The notes under the pieces: model-generated
Seen by the model: the letters and a program-made list of their open reading frames with translations, nothing else
The model's database searches: none
What the model was told of the DNA's origin: nothing
Source of the DNA: Candidatus Peribacteria bacterium
GTDB lineage: Bacteria > Patescibacteriota > Gracilibacteria > UBA1369 > 2-02-FULL-48-14
Assembly: GCA_943354505.1 (NCBI GenBank)
Contig: CALRCE010000006.1
Coordinates: 1-44,559 of the forward strand
Length of the DNA stretch: 44,559 nt
Direction of reading: 5' to 3'
Position numbers and translations under genes: made by a program
Part shown: positions 26,359-26,852 of the stretch, in pieces
Layout: each line of letters opens with the position of its first letter
How positions within the stretch are numbered: the stretch's first letter is position 1

Positions 26359-26413
26359 TTGCTGATGAATTCAATCTTTAACCCCTCTTCCGATCAAGGC
26401 GAGGGGTTTTTTA
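26344..26413 (+). promoter_or_regulatory. Attenuator: mutually exclusive antiterminator / terminator
   Basis: Antiterminator CGGAATAGGGG (26344-26354) x CCCCTCTTCCG (26382-26392), 10 of 11 pairs; terminator AACCCCTC (26380-26387) x GAGGGGTT (26401-26408) followed by TTTTTTAATTT. Confidence 0.8.
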
Positions 26414-26436
26414 ATTTAAAATTAACAACACTTTTT

Positions 26437-26652
26437 ATGACAAACATTTCACAGGAAGGCCCAAATGGATCCAGTCTTGATGAGCGTGCTTCGCTCGATG
26501 CCTTGCCTCACCAGGCTTTGGCTCCTCAGCTAGGAAGAAGTCCAGAGTTGATATCCGGTCGTGTTCATGGCGTGAGGGGTGGCGTCAAAAAAAGAGTTTT
26601 GGATCGATTTTACGATAACCCCTGTAATACTCCTCGAGGAGTGTTCCTCTGA
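26437..26652 (+). CDS. Small hypothetical protein downstream of the Thr attenuator (71 aa)
   Basis: MTNISQEGPNGSSLDERASLDALPHQALAPQLGRSPELISGRVHGVRGGVKKRVLDRFYDNPCNTPRGVFL*; the longer track start at 26359 lies upstream of the terminator. Confidence 0.5.
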   Translation: MTNISQEGPNGSSLDERASLDALPHQALAPQLGRSPELISGRVHGVRGGVKKRVLDRFYDNPCNTPRGVFL

Positions 26653-26675
26653 CTGTACTTTATAAACTTCAATTT

Positions 26676-26852
26676 ATGTCTCATTCATTCATCGATTTCC
26701 GTTCACAGAAGGCTAAAGTGGATTTGGCTTTTCAACTCTTCATTGCAGGCGAAAGTATTCGTCGAACCGCTCGCCAAGTGCGAGTGGCACCGAGCACCAT
26801 CCAACGTTGGAATGAAGTGTTTTACGAGCGAGACTTTAGCGGTAGTTTGTGA
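26676..26852 (+). CDS. Small helix-turn-helix protein (58 aa)
   Basis: MSHSFIDFRSQKAKVDLAFQLFIAGESIRRTARQVRVAPSTIQRWNEVFYERDFSGSL*; transposase/invertase-like HTH (GESIRRTARQVRVAPSTIQRW). Confidence 0.55.
   Translation: MSHSFIDFRSQKAKVDLAFQLFIAGESIRRTARQVRVAPSTIQRWNEVFYERDFSGSL

Follow-up and report, generated by a model that had tools for sequence, protein, structure and literature searches.

A threonine leader-peptide attenuator that probably feeds a small HTH regulator unit in a Candidatus Peribacteria bacterium

Attenuation by a leader peptide is familiar as feedback control of genes for the synthesis or charging of the amino acid that is sensed. The window analysed here, a stretch of 44,559 nt of Candidatus Peribacteria DNA (contig CALRCE010000006.1), raises the question of what such a device controls if no gene of this kind stands behind it. 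The original prediction had described a threonine attenuator without a thr gene, followed by two small ORFs and then the convergent yajQ gene, and had offered two explanations: either a rearrangement had detached the leader from a thr operon, or threonine availability gates a novel unit consisting of a small protein and a regulator. The description was confirmed in the sequence, and its coordinates are correct with the exception of those of a palindrome. As detailed below, the region 26245-26852 is probably an operon under ribosome-mediated attenuation, which would sense charged tRNA-Thr and feed a small HTH regulator unit.

All features of the locus are collected in Table 1; G, C and L stand for genomes, contigs and loci, respectively, and G000 is the source genome of the window (1.16 Mb, 43 contigs, 97.7 percent complete).

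Table 1. Features of the attenuator locus and its surroundings (positions in the window)
Feature	Position	Strand	Remarks
ECF-sigma/anti-sigma operon	24833-26223	same strand as terminator	upstream of leader
Promoter-like site TTGACG-17-TACAAT	26245-26273	+	10/12 consensus matches; putative function, from consensus match only
Leader ORF, 21 aa, MNRLSFVTTTTTTTTSLRNRG	ATG 26293 to TAG 26358	+	eight consecutive Thr codons at 26314-26337
Antiterminator 5' arm GGAATAGGGG	26345-26354	+	overlaps last leader codons; found by hand
Intrinsic terminator AACCCCTC...GAGGGGTT	26380-26412	+	stem 26380-26408, then T-run
Antiterminator 3' arm CCCCTCTTCC	26382-26391	+	common to terminator 5' arm
71-aa orphan ORF, putative small protein	26437-26652	+	orphan, no relatives
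20-nt near-palindrome AATACTCCTCGAGGAGTGTT	26626-26645	.	not special for genome
58-aa HTH ORF	26676-26852	+	C-terminal half of Peregrinibacteria zinc-ribbon/HTH family
yajQ	26836-27312	convergent	PF04461, E=2.4e-51

The segment 26245-26412 is a complete ribosome-type attenuator. It comprises a sigma-70-like promoter, a leader ORF with a run of a single amino acid, a terminator in front of the structural genes and a competing antiterminator, and the two folds are mutually exclusive. Transcription is predicted to start near 26280 and the leader is presumably translated; no Shine-Dalgarno sequence was visible by eye at any of the three starts. The window contains neither an Rfam match at gathering thresholds nor a tRNA. 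There are seven overlapping matches to (ACN)6 in the whole genome, and three of them lie within the leader ORF. When the fetched stretches of the genome (about 1.16 Mb) were scanned for short ORFs with amino-acid runs ahead of a terminator, this leader ranked first by far with its run of eight, followed by matches with runs of six; those of the latter that were inspected are located inside or antisense to other ORFs. A candidate leader with a Phe run in L155 was also rejected, being antisense to an ORF, and pilin-like genes with terminal Thr runs before a terminator (G000:C39 and the end of G001:C3) proved to be false positives of the pattern search. The leader ORF and the 71-aa ORF share one reading frame (26293-26652), which is open throughout apart from the TAG at 26356 that separates them; this may be a matter of chance (1 in 3).

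The two antiterminator arms pair at nine of ten positions. With a ribosome stalled on Thr1-Thr4, the computed probability of the antiterminator is 0.98 and that of the terminator 0.00, stalling at Thr6 leads to a balanced state, and with a ribosome at the leader stop codon or without translation the terminator forms with probabilities of 0.96 and 0.95, respectively; these values refer to RNA free of the ribosome, with the position of the ribosome edge taken as an assumption from E. coli. Only seven out of 1000 dinucleotide shuffles of 26327-26379, in which the terminator was kept unshuffled, abolished the terminator equally well. One could also assume that the terminator merely ends the ECF-sigma/anti-sigma operon on the same strand, since it follows the stop codon of the anti-sigma gene at a distance of 157 nt, and that a CA-rich tract encodes the Thr run by chance. 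This is hardly credible, as a promoter matching the consensus at 10 of 12 positions lies between the anti-sigma gene and the terminator, a comparable antiterminator is rare in the shuffles, the element shares homology with a congener's thrS attenuator, and related leaders are located ahead of thrS, hom and HTH genes elsewhere.

As an attenuator, the element would work in the following way. With enough threonine, the ribosome would reach the leader stop codon and cover 26345-26354, so that the terminator would form and transcription would end. If charged tRNA-Thr is short, the ribosome would stall in the Thr codons and leave 26345-26354 to pair with 26382-26391. The terminator could then not form and the 71-aa and 58-aa ORFs would be transcribed by read-through. 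The 58-aa HTH protein would most likely regulate transcription upon starvation of a presumed threonine auxotroph, because its family is typically controlled by attenuators.

The targets of related leaders, thrS and hom, calibrate the sensor as a sensor of threonine. Thr runs followed by T-runs were searched for by pattern in 89 genomes of the order and 353 genomes of the class. Within the order, Thr leaders were located ahead of thrS in G001, G020 and G039. Of 17 further Thr leaders in the class, where such attenuators are widespread ahead of thrS, 16 also precede thrS, with the identity of the gene read from the translated sequence (L283, L287-L290, L292, L294, L295, L297, L299-L302, L305, L307, L308). 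Moreover, a Thr leader and a terminator are located directly before a 601-aa fused gene with a homoserine dehydrogenase domain in L220 (G018:C2) and L221 (G029:C1), an arrangement that is a classical thr attenuator in another family of the same order. In G013, G025 and G027, T-box-like sequences (GGTGGAACCG) are present ahead of thrS instead of Thr leaders. Another observation concerning thrS is a 34-aa open frame in G002 (C14:5615-5710), which is 84 percent identical to ThrS residues 8-39 and separate from the main thrS gene.

The leader in the window is followed by none of these targets. Neither thrA/hom, thrB nor thrC is located downstream of it, and the thrS gene of G000, which lacks a leader, is found on a different contig (C12). 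Searches for hom (PF00742) and thrC (TIGR00260) gave no match above threshold in G000, G001, G002, G003 and G004, while G005 showed no hom match and a thrC match only below the cut-off (2.9e-4); both genes were found in 14 of 14 control genomes. We infer threonine auxotrophy of G000 from these two enzymes only. A separation of the leader from a thr operon, as considered in the original prediction, does not agree with the lack of detectable hom and thrC in G000 and the family genomes G001-G005 (bar the sub-cut-off thrC match in G005). As to the synteny comparison which it had proposed, for thr or hom genes behind the leader in close relatives, the true Thr leader-hom operons of the order belong to the other family mentioned above (G018, G029). 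That the element is a remnant of a thr operon is thus not supported by the sequences at hand. A side observation on amino acid metabolism contrasts with the missing threonine genes: a cluster at 30149-39854 of the window, judged by eye only, seems to encode the shikimate/aromatic amino-acid pathway (aro genes) almost completely.

There are, on the other hand, indications for a transfer of the attenuator core. The segment after the leader stop codon aligns with the thrS attenuator of G001 better than any of 2000 shuffles, and blastn aligns the core of both elements over 60 nt at 75 percent (E=0.003), whereas the flanks show no homology. G001 is a congener, and the thrS genes of G000 and G001 are 84 percent identical. 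The occurrence of the same core before thrS in G001 and before small ORFs in G000 lends partial support to the idea that an attenuator of the thrS type has been copied or relocated, whichever of the two sites came first. Therefore, the idea of a rearranged leader survives in part, with thrS rather than a thr operon as the counterpart.

The 58-aa ORF has weak matches in 11 other genomes out of 59 relatives searched, and most of these matches are the C-terminal part of proteins of approximately 100-120 aa with an N-terminal zinc ribbon. In the six-frame translation of the genome, the ORF is the top match to a family profile built from 13 such zinc-ribbon/HTH proteins (E=3.7e-10, model positions 55-97 of 101). 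The family profile did not detect an N-terminal zinc ribbon with CxxC pairs in the window region, whichever frame was read, nor one hidden by a frameshift near the ORF. For this reason we file the 58-aa ORF as an HTH-only relative and not as a full member of the zinc-ribbon/HTH family. Apart from it, only the most divergent relatives lack the zinc ribbon. The codon bias of the ORF is normal, and a single-sequence AlphaFold2 model shows three helices with a pLDDT of about 90 over residues 11-50. DNA-binding HTH domains rank first for this model in Foldseek, with no PDB match below E=0.001, and the Pfam matches (HTH_28/38/23) are weak and below the cut-off. The modelled fold suggests that the product binds DNA. 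In a scan of GTDB contigs, the family turned up at eight loci, in records titled as Candidatus Peregrinibacteria or other Patescibacteria, and one further match, from a deltaproteobacterium, was weak; a Uhrbacteria record identical to the G020 protein was excluded from this count. No member was found in viral contigs in a search with a small alignment.

The family is regularly found behind attenuators. A terminator lies within 90 nt upstream of the start codon in 14 of 14 relatives of the HTH ORF compared to 39 of 729 control ORFs, and a leader in which three or more identical residues follow one another is present in 10 of 14 relatives compared to 12 of 729 controls. This contrast is strong but not blind, as the criteria were fixed only once the first loci were known, and the controls are ORFs of 200 aa or more from G000 alone. 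Runs of Thr or Met account for nine of the 14 relatives: Thr-run leaders precede the HTH genes in G020:C28 (seven Thr), G049 (four) and G031 (three), and Met-run leaders (MMM) those in G020:C18, G012, G057, G030, L346 and L348. The tenth run leader, an Arg run in G005, was left out as a sensor; G001:C4 and G037 possess Leu/Ile-rich leaders without a long run, and no leader class was given to G015 and G039. The HTH ORF of the window has an attenuator upstream as well, but with the 71-aa ORF in between. Folding of 17 Thr and Met leaders resulted in a clear difference between stalling and stop codon in most cases, in only a partial one in G049 and in no clear one in G020:C28, L348, G012 and G030, whereby the calculation is static and does not consider that the antiterminator is the first to form. 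Overall, the proposal that threonine gates a novel unit of a small protein and a regulator is the better of the two original explanations and is supported by the regular position of the HTH relatives behind attenuators, including the Thr leaders in G020, G031 and G049.

The recurrence of the pairing in several other genera is also relevant for the possibility that the element is a displaced thrS attenuator, i.e. a working switch that drives nothing useful, with two ORFs that are due to chance or decaying and an HTH that is a remnant without its zinc ribbon. The homology of the core to the G001 thrS attenuator, the leaderless thrS of G000, the weak codon bias of the orphan 71-aa ORF and the restriction of the HTH to a part of the model would all fit such a relic. 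It is nonetheless unlikely in view of this recurrence, the intact promoter, leader and alternative folds, and an HTH ORF with normal codon bias and a confident fold.

Another possibility is that the HTH originates from an IS1-like element with an InsA-type zinc ribbon and HTH, so that the attenuator would control a mobile element and not a host regulon. Full-length relatives indeed match the N-terminal part of the IS1 transposase NF033558 (E=1.1e-8 for L346 and 6.8e-5 for G020:C28), and there are Pfam matches of the HTH_Tnp type. The NF033558 matches stay below the curated cut-off (35.3 bits for the best relative versus 100), and the window protein does not match at all. Moreover, no catalytic InsB-like gene is present in the window or after G020:C28, the relative whose downstream genes were read, differing leaders (Thr, Met) are attached to one family, and no IS ends were seen on unsystematic inspection. 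A mobile element as the target is therefore very improbable.

The MMM leader with a terminator before zinc-ribbon/HTH genes, a Met-sensing counterpart of the Thr units, occurs in L344, L346, L348, L011 (G012), L008 (G057) and L007 (G030), and the leader sequences are similar across several genomes. An inverted repeat, TTGAC-N4-GTCAA, lies over the -35 box in seven loci (L344 1470, L346 2279, L348 2282, L011 204, L008 1143, L007 1144 and, on the reverse strand, L005 1928) and is a candidate autoregulatory operator. It is absent from the promoter in the window.

These observations can be combined to a wider picture, for which we see the chances as evenly balanced. The small InsA-like zinc-ribbon/HTH factors might be starvation regulators of Peregrinibacteria, each under the control of an attenuator for one amino acid (Thr, Met, perhaps Leu or Ile), and several of them, namely the seven Met or Thr members with the repeat, apparently bind their own promoter. 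The cassettes would have been exchanged among thrS, hom, regulator and orphan genes, with the window as the Thr-sensing, HTH-only case in a presumed threonine auxotroph.

Much less can be said about the 71-aa ORF. In agreement with the original prediction of a protein without a recognised family, no relatives were found in 59 related genomes, GTDB contigs, IMG/VR, phages or plasmids. Its codon score of 0.00, under the 5th percentile of in-frame windows, means a weak codon bias, the context of its start is AT-rich, and it contains a single Cys. The structure prediction proposed for it was run and gave no confident fold (AlphaFold2, pLDDT 55, uninformative). An HTH-like pattern noticed by eye (QALAPQLGRSPELISGR) is unsupported by the family profile and is not claimed here. 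A position between attenuator and HTH gene, as that of the 71-aa ORF, occurs in no HTH relative. A lack of conservation of the small ORFs, which the original prediction had regarded as speaking against a regulated unit, is thus true of the 71-aa ORF only, while the HTH belongs to an order-wide family.

There are other small proteins in the same position behind Thr leaders. In G001:C3 (L233 4510-4824), the Thr leader MKNFTTTTTTTTTPRSGAKSL and a terminator are followed by a 60-aa orphan protein and then pheS, in G005:C8 a Thr leader and a terminator precede a 54-aa protein, and in G020:C18 and G020:C38 (L216, L217) paralogous orphan proteins of 119 and 132 aa are each located behind a near-identical Thr attenuator. 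None of them has a Pfam match above the cut-off. The G001:C3 and G005:C8 proteins share the N-terminus MCN...R.E, which is no more than a lead (shuffle P=0.01). Their kinship with the 71-aa ORF is undemonstrated, since BLASTP gave no match to the G001 and G005 proteins and the shuffle P-values of 0.21 and 0.02, respectively, are not significant or marginal. Both G001 and G005 carry a TrmB-like gene upstream of the Thr leader, but this was dismissed as conserved synteny, as the two genes are different paralogs with 25 percent identity.

A 20-nt near-palindrome is present at the end of the 71-aa ORF as predicted, but at 26626-26645 and not at 26628-26647, and it is unremarkable: the genome contains 60 comparable near-palindromes, with about 34 expected according to our own estimate. 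Another 20-nt near-palindrome (CCCCGAGCGTAAGCTCGGGG) follows an ORF for an IS200-like (REP-type) transposase, recognised by sequence inspection, at 23264-23720 of the window.

The device that elsewhere acts on biosynthesis or charging of an amino acid seems to act here on the genes of a DNA-binding regulator and of small orphan proteins, in a lineage with reduced genomes. If this is true, auxotrophs can turn the loss of one amino acid into a programme of gene expression. It would also demonstrate the re-use of attenuators on new targets and provide a ready set of pairs of leaders and regulators.

Related cases are found in the literature. The hisS/hisZ genes in bacilli are controlled by a histidine leader peptide, sensing systems have been exchanged between the same genes, and clusters of attenuators are common to unrelated genes, including one for a DNA-binding protein (PMC2965389). 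Attenuators before regulator genes are therefore not unheard of, although a family of amino-acid leaders tied to one family of regulators is not described there (PMC2965389). For Patescibacteria or the Candidate Phyla Radiation, no paper dealing with leader peptides and attenuation was found, which is weak evidence as the search hardly covered subscription journals. Overall, the mechanism is classical and the class of the target appears to be undescribed.

The best known leader-peptide transcription attenuators are those of amino-acid operons in E. coli, such as thrL-thrABC, trpL, hisL and pheL. The element in the window resembles them in its short, codon-rich leader, the terminator, the competing antiterminator and the predicted read-through upon stalling. 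It differs in its compact layout, with 24 nt from the stop codon to the terminator stem, and in its target, which is no biosynthesis gene in a genome where hom and thrC are undetected. The leader-peptide attenuator pheM-pheST of E. coli controls an aminoacyl-tRNA synthetase gene. The same sensing of tRNA charging is proposed here, and the core is homologous to a thrS attenuator, but the target is a small HTH unit, whereas the thrS gene of the same genome is leaderless. With InsA of IS1, the full-length relatives share the order of zinc ribbon and HTH at a weak profile match below the curated cut-off, but they are preceded by an attenuator, no InsB-like partner was seen, and the member in the window consists of the HTH only. 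In B. subtilis, the synthesis of the anti-TRAP protein (RtpA) depends on a tRNA-Trp T-box together with the leader peptide rtpLP. Compared by description only, anti-TRAP is not an HTH protein and its gene uses a T-box in addition to the leader peptide, but in both cases uncharged tRNA would induce a small regulator and not an enzyme.
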